From a virus, in the IMG/VR virus record IMGVR_UViG_3300010379_000052, positions 1-25,035 of that record: a stretch of DNA of 25,035 bases; one strand, 5' to 3'. Shown piece after piece: positions 2,773 to 24,690 of this stretch. Below the pieces are notes generated by a model, which was given only the letters and a program-made list of their open reading frames with translations, was not told where the DNA came from and made no database searches. Both the position numbers and the translations under genes were made by a program. Numbering within the stretch: position 1 is the stretch's first letter; every line of letters starts with the position of its first letter.

Positions 2773-3696
2773 TTAGCTGGAGGGGACTCCGTACACCCCG
2801 TAGAAGCCGTTGTAGCCCACGGCAAAACGCATCCAGCCGGCCGTTTTGAGCGTGCGGCTGTCGAAATCGACATCGTGAATGGTGTTGAAGGCTTCCTGCT
2901 CGTAGAAGCGCAGTTCGGTGAGCGACACTTCGGCCTGGATGTACCAGGCATGCATGTCGGTCAAATAGTCCCAGACGGCCCAGGAATCGAACGAGGGCAG
3001 CCCGCTGCGGCGCCGGAAAGGATTGATCGCGCGATTCGCAGTGTCGGGGGCGTCGGTGCCTCCCAACATCGTGGCGGCGATGAATTCCAGGCCGCTCGGG
3101 AAGATGGCTTGCCCCGGCGGAATGCGCTTTTTCTTGCCGGTGTGATCCACCGTCTGGCGCATGTCGGTGAGAGCCAGGCCGATGGAGGTCATGTCCGGAT
3201 CGGTGGCGTAGCTCAGCCGGTTGGTCTGCGTGCCGCCGCCCGGTCCCACCAGAGGATGGGCCGTATTGAACAGGCTCACGCCGTCCGGACCGGTGTCGCT
3301 GAAGCCGCCGTTGAAGACGGAAGCAGCTACGACCTCCCGAGTTTCCAGCGCGGACTAGCCCAGCTCGCCGGCGAACTTGTTGACCACCCCGTGGCGGTCG
3401 TCGTCGCGGCTCAGCCGGGAGACCTTGAAGCCCAGGCCATACTGCGCCGTGATGTAGGTCTTCTTGAAGGCCGGGTAGGGCTGGCTGTAAGGCACGGCCG
3501 CGGCTTCGGGGACCACCACCATCTGGCCGAAGCCGGTCATTTCGGTGGTCTGCTCGATGCCTCGATTGGTCGAGCGCATTCTGAAAAAGTTCGGGAACTG
3601 CGGAGGCCACCGCTTGTAGCGGTCCTGCACGACCTCGTCGATGGCCGGCAGCATGGACTCCAGATAGAGGTCCGGAATTGATTGTCTGATCAGCAT
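2773..3696 (-). CDS. Major capsid protein, interrupted by an in-frame TAG
   Basis: Two consecutive open stretches lie in the same frame: 113 codons from ATG 3696, a TAG at 3357-3355 (codon 114), then 193 codons to TAA at 2773. Together they make one protein of about 307 residues resembling Mu-type phage head subunits. The landmarks are FGQMVVVPEAAAVPYSQPYP, the KKTYITAQYGLGFKVSR block, then ETREVVAASVFNGGF and GVSLFNTAHPL. The TAG falls between AGELG and SALETREVV, where relatives usually carry Lys, Arg or another polar residue, so one base change (AAG or CAG to TAG) explains it. GGGAG lies about 9 bases before the start. I see no internal start with a ribosome binding site after the TAG. Full-length product would require readthrough, suppression or a sequencing error; otherwise the gene is dead. 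Confidence 0.85.
3355..3357 (-). other. In-frame amber codon inside the capsid gene
   Basis: On the minus strand the codons read GGC TAG TCC. Homology-like sequence continues on both sides in the same frame with no frameshift, so this is a single-codon interruption. Other leftward genes end in TAG (stops at 7230, 7680, 10590, 14726 and 15475), so TAG acts as a normal stop in this genome. Confidence 0.9.
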
Positions 3697-3698
3697 GG

Positions 3699-4277
3699 TT
3701 AGACTCCCGCGCTCCCTTGCGCCTTGGCGTGGCGGATGATGATGATCTCCACCACGGCGTAGACGCCTTCGGCGTTGCCCACGCGGTTATGCAGCCTGAG
3801 GATCCGGCTGTCGGAATTGGCGTAAGTGGTTTGCAGTGCGCCGGAGTTGAAAGTCATGGTGGATTTCTTGGTCGTGGCGTTGCCCGCGCCGGTGACGAAG
3901 AGGGCGTTCTTGCCTGCCACCGCGGCTTGAGTCAGCGAGTCGCTGCCGTTGCCCTGGCCGATGAGAATGGTGTCGGGCGTATCGAAGACCCAGTGCAGCG
4001 TGTTGGTGGCCGCGGCGCCGTAGTTCAGCACCGATCCGAGCCACAGCGTAGTCCCCGGCGTGCCGTTCTGCAGGCTGGTGCATCCCGGTACCGGCAGGCC
4101 TGCGCCGATGTCGGCGATGTCAGTGAGAGCCGCCGAGACCGCGGACTTGCTCACGATGTCGCCTACGAAAAGAGCTTGGGTGTGGGCCGCGACTTTGCAG
4201 TATTGGGCCGCTGCCAGCGGGCCCCCGCCGTCGCGGCCGATCGGCAGAAAGCCGAACGGGTTGTTAGTGTTTGCCAA
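3699..4277 (-). CDS. Capsid-associated (probable head decoration) protein
   Basis: 192 residues starting with TTG at 4277; GGAGGGGG lies just upstream and the stop is TAA, two bases before the capsid start. The opening MANTNNPFGFLPIGR is typical of small phage head proteins encoded next to the major capsid gene. The body is Ala/Gly/Thr-rich and beta-like, with a central segment (PVPGCTSLQNGTPGTTLWLGSV) resembling decoration folds. No membrane segment or signal peptide is visible. Adjacency to the capsid gene and the small size suggest a cement or vertex protein; a minor coat protein is the alternative. The rare TTG start with a strong ribosome binding site may tune its amount relative to the capsid protein. 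Confidence 0.68.
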   Translation of the reverse strand: MANTNNPFGFLPIGRDGGGPLAAAQYCKVAAHTQALFVGDIVSKSAVSAALTDIADIGAGLPVPGCTSLQNGTPGTTLWLGSVLNYGAAATNTLHWVFDTPDTILIGQGNGSDSLTQAAVAGKNALFVTGAGNATTKKSTMTFNSGALQTTYANSDSRILRLHNRVGNAEGVYAVVEIIIIRHAKAQGSAGV

Positions 4278-4465: not shown

Positions 4466-5425
4466 TTAGCTCTCGCGTCCGATCTCGATTCCCGCCGCCC
4501 GTGATCGTCCCAGGTAGCCTTCGGGATCTTCTCCGCCGGCATGGGTCGCGGTCAGAATTTCATCGTGCCCCAGAGGAGCGATTCCCTGTGTAGAGAGGCC
4601 TGCGGAGGCCTGCTGAGCCAGGGCGTTCTCGGCGCCGGCTTCGTATTTCTCGGCGATGCCTTCCAGCTTCTCGCGCGCCATTTCCTGCTGCTTGCGCCGG
4701 CGGGCTTCCACTTTCTCGCGCCGCATCTCGCCCAGCATCAAAGTGCCGGCCTTGACGATGTCCCCGTTTTCTTTGACTGGGGTGTAGCCGCGCCACCCGA
4801 GGCGGTCCACGCAGAGCTGGGTAAAGAAGCGGTACTCCATTCCCGGCCTGCGGTGGCGTTTCACCGTTTCTTCGAGAATTGCGGAGCCCAGGATTTCGGG
4901 ATCCAGATCGTCGGAGGCGTCGATCTCCACCGTGCGATACGGAATCTTCAGAACGCGATCGCGGAAGGCGGCAGCAATAGCTTCCCGTCCGAATTTGTGG
5001 ATGGCGATCTCCATGGCCTTGGCCATCAGCGGATCGGGCATGGCGGAAGCGCCCTTCTTCATGATGGCTTCCTCGTACCCGTGCGCCAGGTCCTCGCGGC
5101 CGTACATTTCGAGAGCCTCGCGGAACGTCGGGGAATTGTCCACCAGCGGATCGGGGCCGTAAATGATCTTGGTGATGGTCGCCTGATCGCCGGTGCCGAA
5201 CGCTTTCTTGTCGAACTGGTCCATGAAGGCCGAGGCAGTGTCTGGCTCGGGTTCGGGCTCCGGCAGTTTCAAGCCCAGGTCCGGCAGTACTTTTCTCTGA
5301 GCATCAATTCGTTTCTGGCGATCCGCCAGGATCTGCGCGTTGGAGGCGTCCACCGCGCTGGCGGCTCTGTGCTGCCCCAGCTCCGCGGGGCCGAGCTTGC
5401 GCTTGGGTTTCTGTGCCTGTGCCAT
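4466..5425 (-). CDS. Head-region protein of unknown function
   Basis: 319 residues, ATG 5425, stop TAA. The first ~70 residues are charged and Pro/Glu-rich (PEPEPEPD near residue 55-62), suggesting a flexible linker. Residues ~75-220 look globular. A long basic helical stretch (MRREKVEARRRKQQEMAREKLEGI and on) precedes a loose C-terminus. No enzyme motif is recognised. It starts three bases after the scaffold-like gene ends and precedes the capsid genes, so a head-assembly role (scaffold partner, protease-independent core or plug protein) is inferred from position. An alternative is that this gene and the one before it together act as the scaffold. Confidence 0.75.
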   Translation of the reverse strand: MAQAQKPKRKLGPAELGQHRAASAVDASNAQILADRQKRIDAQRKVLPDLGLKLPEPEPEPDTASAFMDQFDKKAFGTGDQATITKIIYGPDPLVDNSPTFREALEMYGREDLAHGYEEAIMKKGASAMPDPLMAKAMEIAIHKFGREAIAAAFRDRVLKIPYRTVEIDASDDLDPEILGSAILEETVKRHRRPGMEYRFFTQLCVDRLGWRGYTPVKENGDIVKAGTLMLGEMRREKVEARRRKQQEMAREKLEGIAEKYEAGAENALAQQASAGLSTQGIAPLGHDEILTATHAGGEDPEGYLGRSRAAGIEIGRES

Positions 5426-6764: not shown

Positions 6765-7303
6765 CAGCTCGCTCCCATCAGGCGATTGATCCGGAGTACG
6801 TAGTTAATCGTCTCTGCGGAATGGGGGCCTGTGATGCGCGGCAAAAAGAGCTGCGCCGTAGTCCATTCGGGCAGGCCTTGGGCGAGGTGCACGGCCTTGA
6901 GGATGTTGCCAGGGCCGGCGTTGTAAGAGCTGAAGGTGAGGTTGCGCTGCTCCTGGGGATTCGGGGCTTGCTTCCACCCGGTCCAGAGTTGCCGGTCGTA
7001 TTTGATGCCGCCGCGAATGTTGCTCTCGGGATCTTGCGGATCGACGCCCAGCTCCCTGGCGGTCTCGGGCATGAGCTGCATGATGCCGATGGCGCCTACC
7101 GGCGAATGCGCCGAGGGATTGAGCCCGGATTCGGCGATTGCCTGGGCGCGGAACCAGCGCCAGTCTTGCCCCGGAAAGTAGAACTCTCCCCAGTGCTTCA
7201 GCGCCAGATCGTACTTCAACGTCTGGGCGCTAAGCGAGAGCGAAAGCGAGCAGGCCAAGACCAACAGCGATAGCCAGCGCAAGAGGGTTGCTCCCGAGAA
7301 CAT
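6764..7303 (-). CDS. SLT-type lytic transglycosylase, probable endolysin
   Basis: 179 residues. Residues ~5-26 form a hydrophobic segment ending in LSA, then QT: a signal peptide or signal-anchor that would export the enzyme. The transglycosylase domain fills the rest: catalytic Glu58 in AIAESGLNPSA, GIMQLMP (73-79), the YNAGPG motif (127-132) and TINYV (165-169). The enzyme cleaves the MurNAc-GlcNAc bond of peptidoglycan, and position after two small membrane proteins makes it the likely lysis enzyme rather than a virion entry protein. The first ~25 codons overlap the upstream membrane-protein gene in another frame. No strong ribosome binding site precedes ATG 7303, so coupling to that gene is likely. 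Confidence 0.88.
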   Translation of the reverse strand: MFSGATLLRWLSLLVLACSLSLSLSAQTLKYDLALKHWGEFYFPGQDWRWFRAQAIAESGLNPSAHSPVGAIGIMQLMPETARELGVDPQDPESNIRGGIKYDRQLWTGWKQAPNPQEQRNLTFSSYNAGPGNILKAVHLAQGLPEWTTAQLFLPRITGPHSAETINYVLRINRLMGAS

Positions 7304-7412
7304 GCGCCGTGTTCCAACGGCGCAGGAAAGTGCGGTCCAGGACGAAGCCGTTGAGGATCACCAGGAGCATGACCCCTTCTTTGCGGAGCAGGGCCGTGAG
7401 GATTTCGTTCAC
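7230..7412 (-). CDS. Two-TM holin-like protein overlapping the endolysin start
   Basis: 60 residues, GTG start at 7412 overlapping the TGA of the preceding gene (GTGA), ending in TAG. Two hydrophobic segments (MLLVILNGFVL, ~15-25, and LALAIAVGLGLLAFALA, ~44-60) are separated by a basic turn (DRTFLRRWN). The last 74 bases are shared with the endolysin gene in a different frame. Small size, two membrane spans and the position immediately before the endolysin fit a holin or antiholin. Overlap-driven coding makes the second span partly constrained by the endolysin signal sequence. Confidence 0.6.
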   Translation of the reverse strand: MNEILTALLRKEGVMLLVILNGFVLDRTFLRRWNTAHVLGSNPLALAIAVGLGLLAFALA

Positions 7413-7679: not shown

Positions 7680-8201
7680 CTACTGGCTCTTTTTGAAAAC
7701 CGTGGTCAGCTCGATCAGCCAGGTGAGCTTGTTCTGCAATCCGGCAATGGAAAGCTGCCGCGGTCCGCCCGAGAGCCAGGCGTGATACTTGTCCTTCGTA
7801 GCTAATCCGCCCACGTCGATGTACAGGCCGCCGCCGCCGTTCAGCGTGCCCAGGGTGGCCGCATCGAATTTCACCACGCCGCCCTGCGAGTAGTAGTACA
7901 GGCCCCAGTGATTCTGGTGATAGGGGATCTGCAAGAAGCCCGTGGCCAGCGTGATCGAGTTGGAGACATTCGGCGTCTTGATCAGCGCCGTCTCGAACGT
8001 GGTGCTCCAGTAAGTCGGCATTCCGCCGATGGTGGCCACCTGGTACGAGAACCCGGTGAGAGCGCTCGGCTGGTGCGAAACAAAGTCGGTCGAGACGCCG
8101 GCGTGCAGCAGGAATTCGCCGGGAACGCTGGGCGCCGGAGCCTGAGCGCTACAAACGAAAGCGACGGCCAGCAGGCCGATGAGACTCAAGAGTTTCTTCA
8201 T
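7680..8201 (-). CDS. Secreted protein resembling a small outer-membrane beta-barrel
   Basis: 173 residues from ATG 8201 (overlaps the previous TGA as ATGA); a longer in-frame extension upstream is shadow coding. It opens with MKKLLSLIGLLAVAFVCSAQ, a clear Sec signal peptide cleaved after CSA. The mature part shows alternating polar/hydrophobic strands rich in Tyr, Trp, Gly and Thr (HNHWGLYYYSQGG, GGLYIDVGG, KYHAWLSGG, LTWLIELTTVF), the look of an outer-membrane barrel with about 8 strands. The final residue is not the usual aromatic (it ends FKKSQ). Placed between portal and holins, it could modify the host surface (superinfection exclusion) or help outer-membrane lysis. I recognise no named family. 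Confidence 0.7.
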   Translation of the reverse strand: MKKLLSLIGLLAVAFVCSAQAPAPSVPGEFLLHAGVSTDFVSHQPSALTGFSYQVATIGGMPTYWSTTFETALIKTPNVSNSITLATGFLQIPYHQNHWGLYYYSQGGVVKFDAATLGTLNGGGGLYIDVGGLATKDKYHAWLSGGPRQLSIAGLQNKLTWLIELTTVFKKSQ

Positions 8202-8419
8202 ACTTTCTTGTTCGCCATCGCGTCCAGAATTTGCTTCGGCAGGTTGCGGGCGGTGCGCCAGGCGTGCGCGGCCCCTTGCGCGCGCCAGATTTCGCGTTCC
8301 GAATCGGAAGTCGAGCACGTGGTCACGGCGCGAATCTCCTCAGCGGCGATCTGCTTTTGCAGGCGTTGAAAAGGCTCCGAGGCCACCATCTCCTTGAAGC
8401 GCTGCTCCTCACTGCTCAT
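8198..8419 (-). CDS. Small hypothetical phage protein after portal
   Basis: 73 residues from ATG 8419, chosen over upstream starts because GGAGG lies 6-7 bases before it and it overlaps the portal stop by only 11 bases. It is helical and charged (MSSEEQRFKEMVASEPFQRLQKQIAAEEIRAV begins the protein, in two helical runs), with one Cys in TTCSTS. No known domain. Small helical proteins directly after portal genes are often head-tail accessory factors; here that is inference only. Confidence 0.65.
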   Translation of the reverse strand: MSSEEQRFKEMVASEPFQRLQKQIAAEEIRAVTTCSTSDSEREIWRAQGAAHAWRTARNLPKQILDAMANKKV

Positions 8420-10589
8420 GCTGGACCTCCGGATGGGGGCTGAACGGGAAAGGGCCTTCCGCCGCGCGATCGCCAGGGGGCAGCGACGGCAGTCCGCCGA
8501 AGAGGCCATTGGGCATTTGGAGAGGATGGCCGCCTCCCATCAACTGCGCCGCGGCCTGTACGGCTTGCTCCATAACGGCCTGCTGAATCCGTTTCTGCTT
8601 GATCTGGAGCATGTGGTCGCGGTAGTGCAGGACGAGCTTCATCTTTGCGTCCGGTTCGGCGTGCTCCGGATCTTGCTCGGCCCGCTGCAAGTCCTTCATG
8701 TGCCGGGTCATGTGCAGCAGGTCGTTATCCTGCGGGTTGACGTGGATCTCTTCGCCGTGGAGCAGGTTGACCCACTCGGTCTTGGGGTCCACCGGCAGAT
8801 CCGGCGCCGCCGGCTTGGGCACCATCTGATCGAAATTCGGATCGTCCAGGGCGTCGTGGGCTTCCCGCGTCACCTCCCACAGCGCCACGGGGTTGTTGAC
8901 AATCAGGGGGTTCTGCAGGTCGAGCTGGTAGCGCGCGAGCGTCTTCTCTTTTTTGGCCTCGCGGCTGTAAACGCTGTTGGCGAACTGCAATCGGAAGTCG
9001 TACCTTCCGTCGCGGTCGTCGATGGTCAGCATCGACGCTCCGTTGTTGACCTCGAAGAGCCCCTCGGCGTCCTCTTCGGTCACCCGGAAGAAAGTTTCCT
9101 CCGGCGAGAACATGTACTCCAGGCCCCAGAAGTGCGCCAGGACTGCGGCCATGTCTTCGCGCAAGACTTTGTAGTCGAGCGAGATCCGGACGTTGCCCTC
9201 TTCCAATAGCGCCGTGGTCTGCCCCACGGTGCGCGGAGCATTGGGCCGGTCACTCTGCCGCCCCATCTGTAAGTCGCCTTGCCCGGTCAACTTTTCGCCG
9301 TAGGCCAGCACACACTGCTGAATCCAGTCCGCGACCTTCATGTCGGCGGTGATTTTGAGCTGAAAGATGTCCGTCTGCGGATTGTCGAGCGGGATGGCCA
9401 GGCCGGGCTCGATATGGAAAGTGTCGGGATTCATGCCCGACGCCGGCCGGTATCCTAGCGGCGGGCTCATGGCGAGCTGGCCGGCCTCGGCGGCCTGATC
9501 GTGATTCACGCGGAGCTCGTCTTCGAGATCCACCAGCATCTCGGCCATTCCGGGAGACCAGTAAGTGCCGTCCGCCATCATGGCCGACTCGACGAAGGGC
9601 CTTCTGTTTTTCTGCGTAGGGTACAGCTCTTGCAAGTCCTGGCAGCCGATCACCAGGTTGAGGTCGAGGATGTAGCGCACCACGAATTCGCGTTGGCTCA
9701 TCTCGCGCTTTTTGGTGTCCCACTCGGAGGCGTCGGGCATTCCGCCCCTTGGGCCTTTCTTCAAGGGTCTCCAGCGGCCGTACCATTCGAGAACGATCAC
9801 CCACTCGCCGCTCGAAAGCGGGCGGGTGTATTGCAGCCCTTCGGCTTCGTCTTTCTGCAGCTTGATCTCTTCGCCTTCCCAGGCGCGCTGCATTCCTCTT
9901 TGCGCCAGATTGAGGATCTGCTCCCAGTTTTCGGTAATGCCCTGGTAGCGGCCTTCCTTCTCGCCCTTCAACAAGTCGTCGGGCCGCGCTCGGTACCTGC
10001 GGATGTTGAAGCTGAATTCGTGGAGGCTGCGAACTTCCTCGACGGGCACGATGAAATCGTCGGGCCACATCGGGTCGAAATCCGGCCCCTCGTAATCCAC
10101 CACTTCTTCGGGCTCGTAGTTGTTTTTCGGATTCAGGACCTCGAAGGTGTCGCGCTTCCACGGGGCGTAAGCGATGGACCTGCCGAAGATCAGTTTCCGG
10201 CAGATGAACTCACAGAAGCGCTTGGTCAACTTCATAGAGTTGAACACGCGCCAGGTCATATACTTCCCGATCTTCGCGTCCCTCTTATAATCGCTGGCGC
10301 CCACCGGGACAGCTACGATTTCGGCATCGTCGCCAAACAAGCTGTCCATTTCCTTGGCCCATTTCGTGAGGATGTTCCACCTCACGTAGGGCACCGGCAC
10401 ATTCGAGGCGGTCTCTTCCCCTTGAGCCGGATCGTTGACCATGGCTCTCCACCGGCGGTAGTAATCCCGCCAGCGGTTGATTCTACGATTGTGATCGCCG
10501 ATCGCCGCGCGGTAGTCTTGCAGCACGCGATTGCCGATGCGTTGCAGCTCGGCTTTGGGCCACTTCAGTTGGAAATCCTGTTGTTCCAT
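8409..10589 (-). CDS. Portal protein
   Basis: 726 residues, ATG 10589, TGA at 8409, similar in length to P22-type portals. The N-terminus is helical and basic (RRINRWRDYYRRWRAMVND), followed by SNVPVPYVRWNILTKWAKEMDSLFGDD, the usual clip/wing entry of podovirus-like portals. Later landmarks are NHDQAAEAGQLAMSPPLGY, RTVGQTTALLEEGNVRI and DYKVLREDMAAVLAHFWGLE (long stem helices). A Gln/Ala-rich C-terminal helix (RIQQAVMEQAVQAAAQLMGG) fits a barrel. The portal forms the dodecameric DNA entry vertex and docks the terminase encoded two genes upstream. The start codon follows the preceding TAG directly (TAGATG), so translation is coupled. Confidence 0.88.
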   Translation of the reverse strand: MEQQDFQLKWPKAELQRIGNRVLQDYRAAIGDHNRRINRWRDYYRRWRAMVNDPAQGEETASNVPVPYVRWNILTKWAKEMDSLFGDDAEIVAVPVGASDYKRDAKIGKYMTWRVFNSMKLTKRFCEFICRKLIFGRSIAYAPWKRDTFEVLNPKNNYEPEEVVDYEGPDFDPMWPDDFIVPVEEVRSLHEFSFNIRRYRARPDDLLKGEKEGRYQGITENWEQILNLAQRGMQRAWEGEEIKLQKDEAEGLQYTRPLSSGEWVIVLEWYGRWRPLKKGPRGGMPDASEWDTKKREMSQREFVVRYILDLNLVIGCQDLQELYPTQKNRRPFVESAMMADGTYWSPGMAEMLVDLEDELRVNHDQAAEAGQLAMSPPLGYRPASGMNPDTFHIEPGLAIPLDNPQTDIFQLKITADMKVADWIQQCVLAYGEKLTGQGDLQMGRQSDRPNAPRTVGQTTALLEEGNVRISLDYKVLREDMAAVLAHFWGLEYMFSPEETFFRVTEEDAEGLFEVNNGASMLTIDDRDGRYDFRLQFANSVYSREAKKEKTLARYQLDLQNPLIVNNPVALWEVTREAHDALDDPNFDQMVPKPAAPDLPVDPKTEWVNLLHGEEIHVNPQDNDLLHMTRHMKDLQRAEQDPEHAEPDAKMKLVLHYRDHMLQIKQKRIQQAVMEQAVQAAAQLMGGGHPLQMPNGLFGGLPSLPPGDRAAEGPFPFSPHPEVQHEQ

Positions 10590-10820
10590 CTACGCTCCGG
10601 CACCTCGGGCTTTGGTCCGCACTTGGCGCTCGAACGGCGCCAGCAGATGCCGCGCCAGGCGCTCGAAGCGGGCGCAGTCGCCGCAGATCAGGCCCCGCCC
10701 CAGGCAGCAGCTCGCCGGATTGGTGACGGCTTCCTCGTGATGCTCCATCAAGTACTCGAACTGCTCGCGCATGGCGTCGGGCTCGCGGCAGGCCGATTGA
10801 TAGATGGGCTCTCGTTGCAT
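10590..10820 (-). CDS. Small Cys-rich protein between terminase and portal
   Basis: 76 residues, ATG 10820 overlapping the terminase stop by one base (TAATG), TAG immediately followed by the portal ATG. A central cluster (SCCLGRGLICGDCARFERLARHL in part, cysteines at ~44, 45, 52 and 55) could bind one zinc ion together with nearby His. The N-terminal half is helical and acidic (MREQFEYLMEHHEEA), and the C-terminus basic. No family recognised. The tight coupling to both packaging genes suggests a role in packaging or head completion. Confidence 0.7.
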   Translation of the reverse strand: MQREPIYQSACREPDAMREQFEYLMEHHEEAVTNPASCCLGRGLICGDCARFERLARHLLAPFERQVRTKARGAGA

Positions 10821-12553
10821 TAGCGCAGGCGCACCAGGCGTCCTCTGCTCTGTGATTCGACACTCTGGCCGTACTTGCGGACCATGGGCGCCGGCATCGT
10901 CGTCGTTCCCGGCGGTTTCGGCCGCGGCATGCGCAGGATCACGATCAGCACCAGGGCCAGGGCGATCACCAGGTCGTCGTGGCAGCGCTTCTGGGCGCGC
11001 GCCTTCCCATCCGGCCAATAGACGAAGGTCAGCAGCTCGGCCTGGGTCTGCGGGTCGTGGACGATAATCGCCTCCTCGCGGATGGCGTCGTCGAGGTAAG
11101 AGATCAGCAGAGGCCGGGAAGCTCCGCTCGTGGACCAGCCCAGCCGTGTTCCCCGGACCTGCGGGTCCTCGTCGGGGTTCAGGACGTCGTGATAGAGGTA
11201 CGACGCCGGATAGTCGGAATTCAGGACCGCCTCCAGCATGGCGATGCCCCCGCCTCCTGGATTTCTCTCTCCGGCGCACTGGGCGTTGTTGTAGAAGCGC
11301 AGCAGCTTGGCGAGGTAGCGTCCCGATTCGCCGGGCATCTTCCTGGCTCTGGCCACGGCGCACTGCTCGGCGGTGTCGCGGTCGAAAATCTGCGTGGTCC
11401 AGTAATCCGGGTCGGGGCTGCCGCCCTCGGCGGCGTCGATGCCCTGGCTGCAATCCGCCCCCGCGGCGTAGACGCGGCCGCGTTCCGGACGCCGGTACAT
11501 CTTGACGCAGCCCGAATCGTTGGGGATCCACACCAGGCGCTCTTCGTCGCCCACCAGGCGCGTCTCCACCTCCCCCGTCATGGCGTTGCGCTGCACGGGC
11601 ATGCGCATGATGTGGGGCACGCTGAACCGATTCCGCGAGCTGGCGGTGAAAGCCTCTTCGGGGCTGCACGGATGCTCCCGGCGCATCTTCTGGCGGTCGT
11701 TGTTGCAGTCGTTGCGCAGGGTGTAGAGGTACCAGTGCATCTGCTCCGGGCGTAAACCCAAGCGCTCGTAGGTGTCCCGGTCCTCCCTCGAGAGCTGGTG
11801 CATGAACTGCTCGAGAGAAATCACCAGCGGCATGCGGTTGCCGGGGTGTTCCTGCCAGGCCATGAAGAGGAAGATCCAGTCGGATCGGCCCGCCTGGGCT
11901 TCGGTGCACATGGCATGGAACTCGTCGCCTACCGTCGCCGCGGTGCCTTCGATCACCACGCACGTCTCCGGGAGCTTCGGGACTGCCGACATCACCGCCG
12001 TGCGGATCTCGGCCGAATTCTGGTAGTAGGGGAATTCGGAGAAGTGCACGTTGGTGAAGCGCTCGCTGCGGCCGTAAGTCACGCTGCCGGCGGTGTGGCA
12101 GACGATCTCGGAATGGTTGGCGTACTGCAAGCGGTCGGAGAGCGGCGTGTGCAAGGGCAGGCCCCGCGAATCGATCAGTTGCGGCAGGGTGATGACGCCT
12201 CCAAAGGGCTGGTAGCGCAGGTGGAAGCGCTTGTACATGTTGAACAGCGTGCGGGTCGAGTCCTCCTGGTGGCCCAGGACCAGGGATCTTACTCCTGGGT
12301 TGGCGATGGTGTCGTGAAAGAACTCCGCGGCCGTTCCGGTCGAGGCCTGCACGCGGCGGGATTTCAAATACAGGATGCGGACGGGGAGCTGCAGCTCTCT
12401 TTGCCTCTGAATGGCTTCGTCTAATTTGACCTGGCCCGGGCCCAGGATCATGGGCACTTCGCCCAGGCGCTTGTCTTCCGCCTCAACCAGGAGGGATTCG
12501 CGGCAGAAGGTGGCGTGATCCTCGAAGCCGTGGGCGATTTGGTCCGCGGTCAT
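10820..12553 (-). CDS. terL: Terminase large subunit
   Basis: 577 residues, ATG 12553, TAA. The ATPase part has a deviant Walker A (KSRRVQASTGT, 64-74), a Walker B with Glu in NVHFSEF (168-174), and a coupling motif VIEGTAA (200-206). The middle carries the REHPCSPEEAF element typical of large terminases (~292-302). The RNase-H-like nuclease shows Asp367 in AAGADCSQGID, Glu429 in GERNPG and the paired Asp526/527 in HDDLVIALAL. It cuts concatemeric DNA and pumps it through the portal. Walker A having Arg-Ser/Arg-Arg instead of the classic GxxxxGK(T/S) is normal for this family. Start overlaps the sigma-factor stop (ATGA). Confidence 0.92.
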   Translation of the reverse strand: MTADQIAHGFEDHATFCRESLLVEAEDKRLGEVPMILGPGQVKLDEAIQRQRELQLPVRILYLKSRRVQASTGTAAEFFHDTIANPGVRSLVLGHQEDSTRTLFNMYKRFHLRYQPFGGVITLPQLIDSRGLPLHTPLSDRLQYANHSEIVCHTAGSVTYGRSERFTNVHFSEFPYYQNSAEIRTAVMSAVPKLPETCVVIEGTAATVGDEFHAMCTEAQAGRSDWIFLFMAWQEHPGNRMPLVISLEQFMHQLSREDRDTYERLGLRPEQMHWYLYTLRNDCNNDRQKMRREHPCSPEEAFTASSRNRFSVPHIMRMPVQRNAMTGEVETRLVGDEERLVWIPNDSGCVKMYRRPERGRVYAAGADCSQGIDAAEGGSPDPDYWTTQIFDRDTAEQCAVARARKMPGESGRYLAKLLRFYNNAQCAGERNPGGGGIAMLEAVLNSDYPASYLYHDVLNPDEDPQVRGTRLGWSTSGASRPLLISYLDDAIREEAIIVHDPQTQAELLTFVYWPDGKARAQKRCHDDLVIALALVLIVILRMPRPKPPGTTTMPAPMVRKYGQSVESQSRGRLVRLR

Positions 12554-13248
12554 GCCGCCCTTTGAAATTCGTGACTCAGCCGGTTCTTGGCCAGCGCCAG
12601 CTTCTTCCGCGCCCAGTGCACGGATCTACCGCACTCCTCGGCCGTCTCTTGCAAGGGTCGGCCTGCCAAGGCTGCCAGGATGACTTGCTGCTGATCCTCG
12701 GGGAGCAATCGGTGGATGGCTTGCTGCAACCGGCGGAGCTGCTCGCGCGAGCCGGCCAGCGCGTCGGGAAGGGGCGAAATATCGACCGGAACGCGCTCCG
12801 GGTAGACCTGATCCTCTTCTCCGTCCTTCGAGATGGGCGTACAGGCGTCAATTGAGAGCATGCACTGATCCCGGTATTGCCCTCGGCGGTGGGCGTCGAT
12901 GATCGCCCCCCGTATCCGCCGTAAGGCATAGCGCGGGAAGTCTTCCATCGGCGCCGCCGGGGCGAATCGGTGGATCGCCTGCATCAATCCCACGCAGCCG
13001 TAGCCCACGAAATCCTCGATCAGTAAGTGCGAGACGAAGCCGTTTTGCCCGTGCCGCGAGTACTTACGCCACATCGCCCTGGCGAGCTTCTGGACCAAGG
13101 GAAGGTTTGCTTCGGCGAGCTGGGCCGCTCTGTTTCGGGCTTTGGCTTGCCGCCGGCGCCGCAGCTCGCAGGCCATGAGCTGCGCGTTTCCTCGCAGGTC
13201 CGCGAGGTAAGCGCTCCATTGTTGCGTGCTGAGGCGGATGACGGACAT
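12550..13248 (-). CDS. Phage-encoded sigma-70 family factor (FliA/SigF-like)
   Basis: 232 residues from ATG 13248, which overlaps the upstream TGA (ATGA); longer in-frame starts lie inside the upstream gene. Region 2 is clear: ANLPLVQKLAR (~47-57), IEDFVGYGCVGLMQAIHRF (~77-95, the core-binding and -10 helix) and YALRRIRGAIIDAHRR (~107-122). A degenerate region 3 linker (~125-165) follows. Region 4 spans ~172-228, with LPEDQQQVILAALAG and the HTH TAEECGRSVHWARKKLALAK. This is the sigma-28/SigF type without region 1. Sitting between the probable terS and terL, it probably directs host RNA polymerase to late promoters. Its promoters are not identifiable here. Confidence 0.85.
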   Translation of the reverse strand: MSVIRLSTQQWSAYLADLRGNAQLMACELRRRRQAKARNRAAQLAEANLPLVQKLARAMWRKYSRHGQNGFVSHLLIEDFVGYGCVGLMQAIHRFAPAAPMEDFPRYALRRIRGAIIDAHRRGQYRDQCMLSIDACTPISKDGEEDQVYPERVPVDISPLPDALAGSREQLRRLQQAIHRLLPEDQQQVILAALAGRPLQETAEECGRSVHWARKKLALAKNRLSHEFQRAA

Positions 13249-13646
13249 CAGGGTATCGGCGTGTAGCCCGCCTCGAAGGCCTTTGCCGGGCTGAAGGACT
13301 GGTAGCCGTCCTCGTAGCAGACGAAGTACCCGCCGGGGTACGGCTTGTGCCTCAGCAGATACTCCGTTCCCACGCGGAAGCATTTCACCTTCTGCTCTTC
13401 AGGGATGAGGACGGCCCCGCCGCCGCCGCCAGTCACGGGGTGCACGCGCTTGATCTTCAGCGCCCACACCTCCTTGTGGCAGCGGTAGCGGGGTAGGAGC
13501 GTCCACGGTTGCTCGGTTTCGATGGGCTGGGGCTTGGGAGGGGCTTTGGGATAGAGCTTCTTACAGGCGATGGTTGCAACGATGATGATGATGAATGCCA
13601 GCCCGAAGCAACCCAAGCCGGCGTCGAGCAGCAGTGTTTCCGTCAT
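13248..13646 (-). CDS. Single-pass membrane protein, unknown
   Basis: 132 residues from ATG 13646, overlapping the previous TGA by ATGA; an earlier in-frame ATG at 13700 lies inside the upstream zinc gene and is not favoured. A strong membrane span at ~12-28 (CFGLAFIIIIVATIACK) is followed by a basic KKLYPKAPPKPQP stalk, then a ~95-residue soluble domain with four Cys/His-containing strands and a GGGGG loop. The orientation is probably N-out, with the globular domain inside. No family recognised. Its TGA overlaps the sigma-factor start, so the two are co-translated. Confidence 0.68.
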   Translation of the reverse strand: MTETLLLDAGLGCFGLAFIIIIVATIACKKLYPKAPPKPQPIETEQPWTLLPRYRCHKEVWALKIKRVHPVTGGGGGAVLIPEEQKVKCFRVGTEYLLRHKPYPGGYFVCYEDGYQSFSPAKAFEAGYTPIP

Positions 13647-14725: not shown

Positions 14726-15193
14726 CTACGCCGCCTTCGGAGGCGCCACGGGTTTGAGGGCCACAATCGTGAAAGTCCGGTAGCCGGATCTCTCTTCGTG
14801 GATCAGGCCCGCCTGGGCGCTCTTGGGGACGTACTTGTCGATGGCCGCGCCGAAGGGGATCTCCAGCAGGGCGATCAATCCGTCCATGGTGAGGGCTTTC
14901 TTCAGCAGACCGAAGATTTTCTTTTTGTCGACGACGGTCCGCTCGTTGCGCTTGGGGGAGAGCTGGACTTCGTACTCGTTGCCCCGCCCGGTGCAGGGTT
15001 TTTCCGCATCGAAGTCTGAGAAGTGGAGGTCGAGCTTCTCTTTCAGAACCTTGTAGCGGGCTTCCAGAGGCTTGGTTAACTGTAGTTGGCGGTCGATCTC
15101 CCCCAGTTCGTCAATATCGAGGGCCAGCGGGTTGGGCATGGAGACCACCCGCGAACTGGGGGCTTTGGATAAGGTACTGCTTGGCTGGGTCAC
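14726..15193 (-). CDS. First gene of the leftward operon, hypothetical
   Basis: 155 residues from GTG 15193, ending in TAG. An alternative ATG at 15140 (MPNPLALDIDELGEIDRQL) gives 137 residues and may be the real start, since neither start has a convincing ribosome binding site. The sequence begins with a helical stretch (LTKPLEARYKVLKEKLDLHF) followed by a beta-type core (NEYEVQLSPKRNERTVVDKKKIFGLL) and a C-terminal strand (RSGYRTFTIVALKPVAPPKAA). It resembles small phage accessory proteins found beside recombination or early genes, but I recognise no named family. It lies divergent from the LuxR-type gene. Confidence 0.68.
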   Translation of the reverse strand: MTQPSSTLSKAPSSRVVSMPNPLALDIDELGEIDRQLQLTKPLEARYKVLKEKLDLHFSDFDAEKPCTGRGNEYEVQLSPKRNERTVVDKKKIFGLLKKALTMDGLIALLEIPFGAAIDKYVPKSAQAGLIHEERSGYRTFTIVALKPVAPPKAA

Positions 15194-15274: not shown

Positions 15275-15550
15275 ATGCGCGTCTTCCAGTGGAACAACGA
15301 GGAGTGGGTAATTCTCTCCCGGCGGGAGAGGCAAGTACTCACGCTGCTATGCGCCGGCAACGAGGTGAAGACCATCGCCCACACCCTGGGCCTGTCGCCC
15401 TTCACGGTGAAGGGACACATCTCGCAGATGGAGACGCGCCTCCACATGAACCGGGTGCAGTTGAGCCTGTGGGCCTACTCGAACGTCAAAGTATTGTCGG
15501 GAGAGCCGGCGCCGACCACGTTCGTAGGCCTGGTCGACCTGGCCGCCTGA
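15275..15550 (+). CDS. LuxR/GerE-type HTH regulator
   Basis: 91 residues, ATG 15275, TGA. The C-terminal-type LuxR HTH occupies ~14-65: LSRRERQVLTLLCAGNEVK, TIAHTLGLSPFTVKGHI and SQMETRLHMN, with the Glu18 and the TV-K recognition-helix pattern in place. No receiver or ligand domain precedes it, so this is a stand-alone DNA-binding protein. Being the first rightward gene at the divergent junction, it probably controls the early/late or lysogeny switch and may bind the adjacent dyad. Its last 76 bases overlap the 3' end of a convergent gene. Confidence 0.82.
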   Translation: MRVFQWNNEEWVILSRRERQVLTLLCAGNEVKTIAHTLGLSPFTVKGHISQMETRLHMNRVQLSLWAYSNVKVLSGEPAPTTFVGLVDLAA

Positions 15551-15756
15551 GCCTGGCGCATCTCACTCAACCACTGCTCGCGCTCCAGCAGCCGCAACGC
15601 CACCGCGATCACGCCTGCCTCGCTGATGCCCAGCGTGTCCGAAAGCCGATGCAGCAGGAAGCTCGTATCCGTGGAGATGCGGAAGGTCTTTGTGGGCTTC
15701 GCCACCACTCCACCGTAGCTCAGCGCGGCCTTGTCCGGATGGAATTGTGTTTCCAT
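15475..15756 (-). CDS. Ribbon-helix-helix-like DNA-binding protein
   Basis: 93 residues, ATG 15756, TAG. Residues ~22-60 (TKTFRISTDTSFLLHRLSD, then TLGISEAGVIAVALRLLERE) match the CopG/Arc pattern: one beta strand, a helix, a GIS turn and a second helix with aliphatic spacing. The C-terminal 30 residues are Ala/Arg/Thr-rich tail. There is no Shine-Dalgarno next to ATG; the nearest purine run lies ~42 bases upstream inside the loop of the large inverted repeat, so folding of that repeat could control translation. It is convergent with the LuxR-type gene and overlaps it by 76 bases. Probable repressor. Confidence 0.68.
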   Translation of the reverse strand: METQFHPDKAALSYGGVVAKPTKTFRISTDTSFLLHRLSDTLGISEAGVIAVALRLLEREQWLSEMRQAQAARSTRPTNVVGAGSPDNTLTFE

Positions 15757-20525: not shown

Positions 20526-20719
20526 TGCGTAAGGGCACCAGGCGAGGCTCACCACTGCGGAGGGTCGTCGACTGGCGCCTCAATCAGTACGGCAGCCCCG
20601 TCGACATCCTCGAGTGCGGCCACGAGATGATCCGGCGCCAGGATCACTACGGCTACTATGCAGCGGATCGGCGCCGGTGCGGCAAGTGCCGAATCCTGCG
20701 GGGGGAGGGTAAGTCATGA
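20522..20719 (+). CDS. Small basic Cys/His protein
   Basis: 65 residues from ATG 20522 (GGAGGAGG upstream), overlapping the stop before it. Basic N-terminus (MMRKGTRRGSPLRRVVDWRL), then CGHEM (~35-39) and RCGKC (~54-58), which could form a C-x-H...C-x-x-C zinc site. Typical of small zinc proteins in phage early regions; function unknown. The stop overlaps the next start (ATGA). Confidence 0.68.
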   Translation: MMRKGTRRGSPLRRVVDWRLNQYGSPVDILECGHEMIRRQDHYGYYAADRRRCGKCRILRGEGKS

Positions 20720-20970
20720 TCGCAGTCGAAGTCCTGGTCCTATGCGAGAGTTGCGGCGCGCGCTACCCACACCACGGAGGGACGCTGCTGTACGTCGCCA
20801 ATTTCGGTGAGCTGATTTCCGCCGCCGGCGGCCGGGTACACGCGGCGAAGCTGGACGGCTGGACCGAGGATGGCCAGGCGCACTGGTGCCCCGAGTGCAC
20901 TGTCACGAGGTTCGCGGCACCCCGTAAAAACGTACACCTTGCGCCGGCGGCCAACAACCGGCCGGAATAG
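20716..20970 (+). CDS. Zinc-ribbon protein
   Basis: 84 residues from ATG 20716, preceded by GGGGGAGGG. CESC (~10-13) and CPEC (~58-61) form the ribbon, with a helical/strand insert (YVANFGELISAAGGRVHAAKL) between them and a His before the second pair. C-terminal tail is disordered. No specific family recognised. Confidence 0.72.
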   Translation: MIAVEVLVLCESCGARYPHHGGTLLYVANFGELISAAGGRVHAAKLDGWTEDGQAHWCPECTVTRFAAPRKNVHLAPAANNRPE

Positions 20971-23708: not shown

Positions 23709-24023
23709 GTGCGAATAATTGCGCTGCCCCGAGGGACCATCGACGAGACAGGCCATACGTATGGCTGCCTCAAAGTCAAGGAGTATGCCGGCCTGGACTC
23801 CGGGGGCGGCGCCGCGTGGCTGTGCGACTGTAGCTGCGGCGATCCTGAGTGCCTGCGCCAAGTCAAGGTCCGAGGCGCCAAGCTGCGCGCTGGCCGCGTG
23901 GTGAGCTGCGGGCGGCTGCGCGCCAATGCCGGCGTGAGGCGCGAGGCGCGGATGAAACTGCCGGCGAAGAGGCGTAAGGCTATCGCCCGGATGGGCGCCG
24001 ACGCGCGGATCGCTACCCTCTGA
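23709..24023 (+). CDS. Phage Cys-rich protein of the SCGCL-type family
   Basis: 104 residues. The start is GTG 23709, since GGAGG and GAGGAG lie just upstream; the ATG two bases earlier (23707) opens only a three-codon frame (ATG TGC GAA TAA). The middle segment, GHTYGCLKVKEYAG, WLCDCSCGDPECLRQVKVRG, AKLRAGRVVSCGRL, follows the pattern G-x-x-x-G-x-L-x-V...W-x-C-x-C-x-C-G...V-x-x-x-x-L-x-x-G-x-x-x-S-C-G seen in many phage DNA-associated proteins, often linked to HNH or AP2 domains. The C-terminus is basic. Probably zinc- and nucleic-acid-binding. Its end overlaps the recombinase 3' end by 11 bases, convergently. Confidence 0.72.
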   Translation: MRIIALPRGTIDETGHTYGCLKVKEYAGLDSGGGAAWLCDCSCGDPECLRQVKVRGAKLRAGRVVSCGRLRANAGVRREARMKLPAKRRKAIARMGADARIATL

Positions 24024-24690
24024 GGCCGGCTCGAATCGTGGATTGAGCGACTCCCATTTTGCGGCCGATCTCCCTCCAGCTCAGACCGGATTTGCGGAGC
24101 TGCAGCGCGCGATCGCGCGAGAACACCGTGGGGCGCCGGCCGCCGACCCGTCCCTCCCGGCGAGCTCGCGCCAGGCCGGCCTTGGTCCGCTCGGAGATCT
24201 TCAGTCGTTCCATCTTGGCCATTGCCGCCGACAACGCGATCATCAATTCCCCGAAGACGTCGCCCATCGGTCCCGTGGTGCGGAACTGCGGCTCGGTGTA
24301 GCTCTCGTATTTCACGCCGTATTCCCTCAGCGTCCGCAGGTGTCTGAAGGTTTCCTCGATGCCCTCGCGCGAGAGCCGGTCCAGCGCCCAGGTAACCACC
24401 ACATCGAATTGCTTGCGGCTGGCGTCTCCGAACATGCGGGTGAGGGCGTCGCGGTCGGAATGCTTGCCGGTCTCGTAGTCGATGTATTCGATGGATTCCC
24501 AGTGCTGCGCTTTGGCATAGCGTCTCAGCTCGAGGAGCTGGTTCTCGGCGTCCTGGCCCTCATACCTCGAGCAGTCACAGCCTGAGCGCCGGCAAGAGCC
24601 TTTGCCTTGTGCGTGATCCGTCTTCAGGTGGCCACAGGAGCGTACCGTGCAGGTCTCTTTCGAGACTCGGGCATAGATGGCGACGCGCAT
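24013..24690 (-). CDS. Small serine recombinase (resolvase/invertase family) with Cys-rich insert
   Basis: 225 residues, ATG 24690, TGA. The catalytic domain shows YARVS with Ser10 as nucleophile, NQLLELRRYA (~50-59), YIDYETGKHSDRDALTRM (~69-86), ALDRLSR (~102-108, two Arg of the active site) and the E-helix region ELMIALSAAMAKMERLKISE. The resolvase HTH lies at ~195-223 (ALQLRKSGLSWREIGRKMGV, AQSTIRAGLR). Between the catalytic Ser and the NQ helix is an insertion of about 35 residues holding Cys14, 19, 33, 38, 40 and His21, 26, probably zinc-binding. It may be the prophage integrase, a DNA invertase or resolvase; its size favours the last two. Confidence 0.9.
   Translation of the reverse strand: MRVAIYARVSKETCTVRSCGHLKTDHAQGKGSCRRSGCDCSRYEGQDAENQLLELRRYAKAQHWESIEYIDYETGKHSDRDALTRMFGDASRKQFDVVVTWALDRLSREGIEETFRHLRTLREYGVKYESYTEPQFRTTGPMGDVFGELMIALSAAMAKMERLKISERTKAGLARARREGRVGGRRPTVFSRDRALQLRKSGLSWREIGRKMGVAQSTIRAGLRG

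Follow-up and report, generated by a model that had tools for sequence, protein, structure and literature searches.

An in-frame TAG at codon 114 of a phage major capsid protein gene is probably an isolated nonsense change without function

The capsid gene and its neighbours

The stretch of DNA analysed here (the window) is a complete, linear metagenomic IMG/VR record of 25,035 bases that is not part of a larger genome record; it probably represents about half of a phage genome. Its features, among them a major capsid protein gene that contains an in-frame TAG, are collected in Table 1.

Table 1. Positions of genes and other features in the window
Feature	Position	Strand	Remarks
Major capsid protein gene, HK97-fold	2773..3696	-	307 codons on read-through, interrupted by one TAG, ending in TAA at 2775..2773
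ORF in front of the internal TAG	3696..3355	-	113 amino acids, ended by TAG at 3357..3355
In-frame TAG, codon 114 of the capsid gene	3355..3357	-	sense codon in all 74 related contigs
Gene for small conserved head-region protein	3699..4277	-	directly upstream of the capsid gene; intact, single uninterrupted matches in relatives
Late-block gene	4466..5425	-	intact, from alignment to relatives
Gene ending in TAG	7230..7412		
Late-block gene ending in TAG	7680..8318	-	read-through would extend the product by 149 residues across the next gene
Portal / head-tail adaptor gene	8409..10589	-	intact; profile and relatives
Terminase large subunit gene	10820..12553	-	intact; profile and relatives
Sigma-70-like factor gene	12550..13383	-	overlaps the terminase gene by 4 bases at that gene's start
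Late-block gene ending in TAG	14726..15193	-	relatives' homologues terminate at roughly the same point, in some cases likewise with TAG
Small ORF, LuxR-type HTH protein	15275..15550	+	PF00196, 2.9e-13
Small ORF	15475..15756	-	
Gene ending in TAG	20716..20970		
Small serine recombinase gene, ending in TAG	24013..24690	-	resolvase/invertase type, 225 amino acids

A sequence-only reading of this DNA had noted a single TAG within the capsid gene, flanked on either side by open reading frame, and the ORF together with a check of the sequence confirmed this arrangement: beyond codon 114 the frame stays open until the terminal TAA. The 307-residue product obtained by reading through the stop is recognized by profiles of HK97-fold major capsid proteins (Phage_capsid_4 / Mu gpT-like). 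It matches the Pfam family PF25209 (Phage_capsid_4; 1.6e-10, above the cut-off) over residues 24-253, and hence over most of the protein, with 42.2 bits against a cut-off of 27; it also matches PF10124 (Mu-like gpT; 31.1 against a cut-off of 20.1) and PHROG 371, major head protein. An AlphaFold2 model based on the protein aligned with its relatives (mean pLDDT 71.6) retrieved phage capsids and encapsulins from the PDB in a Foldseek search (probability 1.00, TM-scores about 0.35-0.55), and the predicted structure is an HK97 fold. The stop sits in a predicted 29-residue helix (residues 101-129), which, given what is known of the fold, we interpret as the HK97 spine helix. Both the sequence profile and the predicted fold agree with those of the HK97-fold, Mu gpT-like capsids, as exemplified by JBD30 (PDB 8rkx/8rkc), although the relationship to the JBD30 capsid is remote, the structure alignment showing about 14% identity.

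Lesions of this kind appear to be infrequent in contigs of this phage family, since internal stops are absent not only from the capsid genes of the relatives (see below) but also from the portal matches in 45 related records and the terminase matches in 43. A TGA within the terminase of one relative (G012), considered as a second lesion, turned out to be the ordinary terminal stop of that gene. The portal gene of another relative (G005:C1:10519-10634; L094) carries about 38 extra, stop-free codons near the position of window portal residue 157, and the matches of two further portals (G024 and G025) are broken in a similar way. Homologues of the sigma-70-like gene are found on the terminase side in relatives, so phages of this family may have their own sigma factor. 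Two small convergent and overlapping ORFs, one of them encoding the LuxR-type HTH protein, separate the late block from the plus-strand genes. The small serine recombinase has a close match in relative G009, and no large integrase was seen within the window.

Relatives of the phage and the residue at codon 114

Viral contigs and one genome per bacterial or archaeal species were scanned for capsid relatives, which yielded 74 distinct contigs. Most of the genome hits are to metagenome-assembled genomes (MAGs) of Bryobacterales, and as judged from these records the relatives of the window phage occur in that group of Acidobacteriota. A capsid relative with 60% identity (L018 / G017:C57, loci L176-L179) is located within a 100.5-kb Bryobacterales contig, where it is flanked by host-type genes for TssG, a Ser/Thr protein kinase, fumarase and a SpoIIE-type protein. 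This position between bacterial genes indicates that the family includes prophages and makes a prophage home plausible for the window phage as well. The comparison set thus assigns the family to the phages of Bryobacterales, at least one member being a prophage. No close relative of the family was found among 50,697 named phage records, where the best capsid identity was about 30%. One relative (L016; JAFARZ010000225.1) stems from a MAG named Streptosporangiaceae (Actinomycetota), and its capsid and portal match values equal those of the viral contig L038; this contig is probably misbinned, and otherwise would point to a second host phylum.

Codon 114 is a sense codon in every one of the 74 related contigs. 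The nine nearest relatives (87.6-90% amino acid identity), some of whose contigs are nearly identical to one another, all have Glu at this position, encoded by GAG in eight and by GAA in one; GAG and TAG are one base apart. Beyond these nine, Arg or Lys is found nearly throughout, with one Ala and one Asn. The Lys or Arg that the sequence-only reading had named for this position is thus found in the more distant relatives, whereas the nearest ones have Glu. None of the 74 contigs has a stop at any point of its matched capsid gene, and neither a scan with the exact neighbourhood of the codon-114 TAG nor one with a degenerate motif carrying the TAG retrieved a further copy. Relatives sharing the TAG and having a split capsid, which would have spoken against the sequence-only reading, were looked for and are likewise absent (0/74). 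The 74 relatives and the two pattern scans rule out a readthrough that is shared or conserved within the family.

State of the gene and the two forms of a nonsense change

Over its 924 nt, the capsid gene of the window aligns without gaps to those of five full-length close relatives (88-90% identical). Nei-Gojobori dN/dS ratios against these five amount to 0.09-0.18 in the part before the stop and 0.10-0.15 in the part behind it, values that fall in the range found between intact relatives, and the changes private to the window capsid show no nonsynonymous excess over those private to the relatives, although the numbers are small. Each of the other late genes that has homologues aligns as a single uninterrupted match. 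The absence of indels and the equal constraint in both halves of the gene imply either a very recent stop or an error in the contig; if real, the stop would have arisen very recently. A long-dead pseudogene is ruled out by the same absence of indels and by dN/dS ratios as low as those between intact relatives.

We suggest, with a probability of about 0.94, that the codon-114 TAG is a nonsense change without function, which either reflects a wrong base in the contig or is a genuine inactivating mutation of very recent date. The TAG would then be an isolated change in an otherwise intact and recently selected capsid gene; translation would yield only 113 residues and break off partway along a long helix of the capsid fold, no capsid would form from this product, and capsid function would be lost. 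The dead prophage, the population variant and the sequencing error that the sequence-only reading had listed are supported as a group. It should be noted that the intact capsid, portal and terminase genes of the relatives make such a lesion uncommon in the family, and that a suppressor tRNA could sit in the part of the genome beyond the window.

For the first form, in which the true codon is a sense codon and a single wrong base entered the contig through a consensus or assembly error, perhaps at low coverage, we see even odds. It would account for a single substitution that is present only in this contig, with all else intact. A random substitution in the late block creates a stop in about 3.4% of cases (1,511/43,902), and with a few errors per 100,000 bases across some 75 contigs of the family, one such stop would be expected.

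The second form, to which we assign a probability a little short of even, is a real and recent nonsense allele, carried by a defective prophage or by a non-viable or rare genome that happened to be caught by the assembly. Since the family includes prophages, a lesion in the capsid gene of a prophage would cost nothing until induction, and purifying selection that lasted up to near the present would make the lesion a recent one. Against a real allele stand the lack of any other lesion in the window and the fact that a broken capsid gene occurs in none of the 74 relatives.

Amber mutants of phage head genes and the genes of defective prophages offer the same picture of one substitution that turns a sense codon of an otherwise intact essential gene into TAG, but the present case is known from one metagenomic contig alone.

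Suppression, split products and reassignment of TAG

The remaining option of the sequence-only reading, amber suppression by a tRNA of host or phage or a regulated readthrough of the capsid stop, is very improbable. The frame behind the stop is indeed intact and conserved, and part of the phage genome lies outside the window; nothing specific, however, speaks in favour of suppression or regulated readthrough, and both are weighed against because the stop is unique (0/74), no suppressor tRNA was found and the RNA 3' of the stop lacks structure. With regard to the tRNAs, the search for a CUA anticodon that the sequence-only reading had proposed gave no such tRNA in the window, in 26 related phage contigs or in two MAGs. 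No tRNA genes of any kind were detected in the window (probably half a genome), in the loci of relatives or in the 26 contigs, several of which measure 44-51 kb. The two MAGs, G017 and G013, are both Bryobacterales that carry relatives, and may not represent the host of this particular phage; a CUA anticodon is absent from the 48 tRNAs of G017 and from the 21 ARAGORN-typed tRNAs among 25 tRNA matches of G013. With regard to structure, the 88 nt starting at the stop show no greater folding stability than shuffled sequences (z -0.08). Both a conserved stop and a downstream stimulatory structure, the marks of programmed readthrough, are missing. Furthermore, TAG serves as the stop of five genes in the window. 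If functional, the TAG would act as a single-codon switch on capsid production; that a temperate phage makes its capsid only under amber suppression, with one TAG controlling particle production, is a prospect we likewise regard as very slim.

We see next to no chance that the two parts of the capsid are translated separately: the first in-frame start codon beyond the stop is a GTG at 3279 (codon 140), but it is not preceded by a Shine-Dalgarno-like sequence, a restart there would drop residues 114-139, and none of the 74 relatives is split. Because the stop cuts through one predicted helix (101-129) of the HK97 fold and a convincing internal start is lacking, fragments produced independently would hardly assemble or work, and a split gene is rejected on these grounds.

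An in-frame TAG in a structural gene is also found in TAG-recoded phages (table 15), such as crAss-like phages and phAss-1 (PMC10607447, PMC11210395). Among phages with a predicted table 15 code, about half encode a CUA suppressor tRNA (PMC11210395), and in phAss-1 41 ORFs contain TAG, alongside three suppressor tRNA genes (PMC10607447), whereas the window has one TAG in one gene, five genes that end in TAG and no tRNA found. Neither many in-frame TAGs nor a disuse of TAG as terminator, two signs of table 15, is seen in the window. A lone in-frame stop in a metagenomic contig that is absent from every relative should not be taken as evidence of recoding.

General reassignment of TAG, which the sequence-only reading had considered unlikely, is excluded because TAG terminates five genes and occurs in frame only once among the 4,878 codons of the late block. 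That reading had counted at least five TAG-ended genes, including three late-block ones; five can be located (Table 1), and three of these do belong to the late block. Read-through of two of them would add 141 and 149 residues, and TAG is the terminator of homologous late genes in relatives as well.
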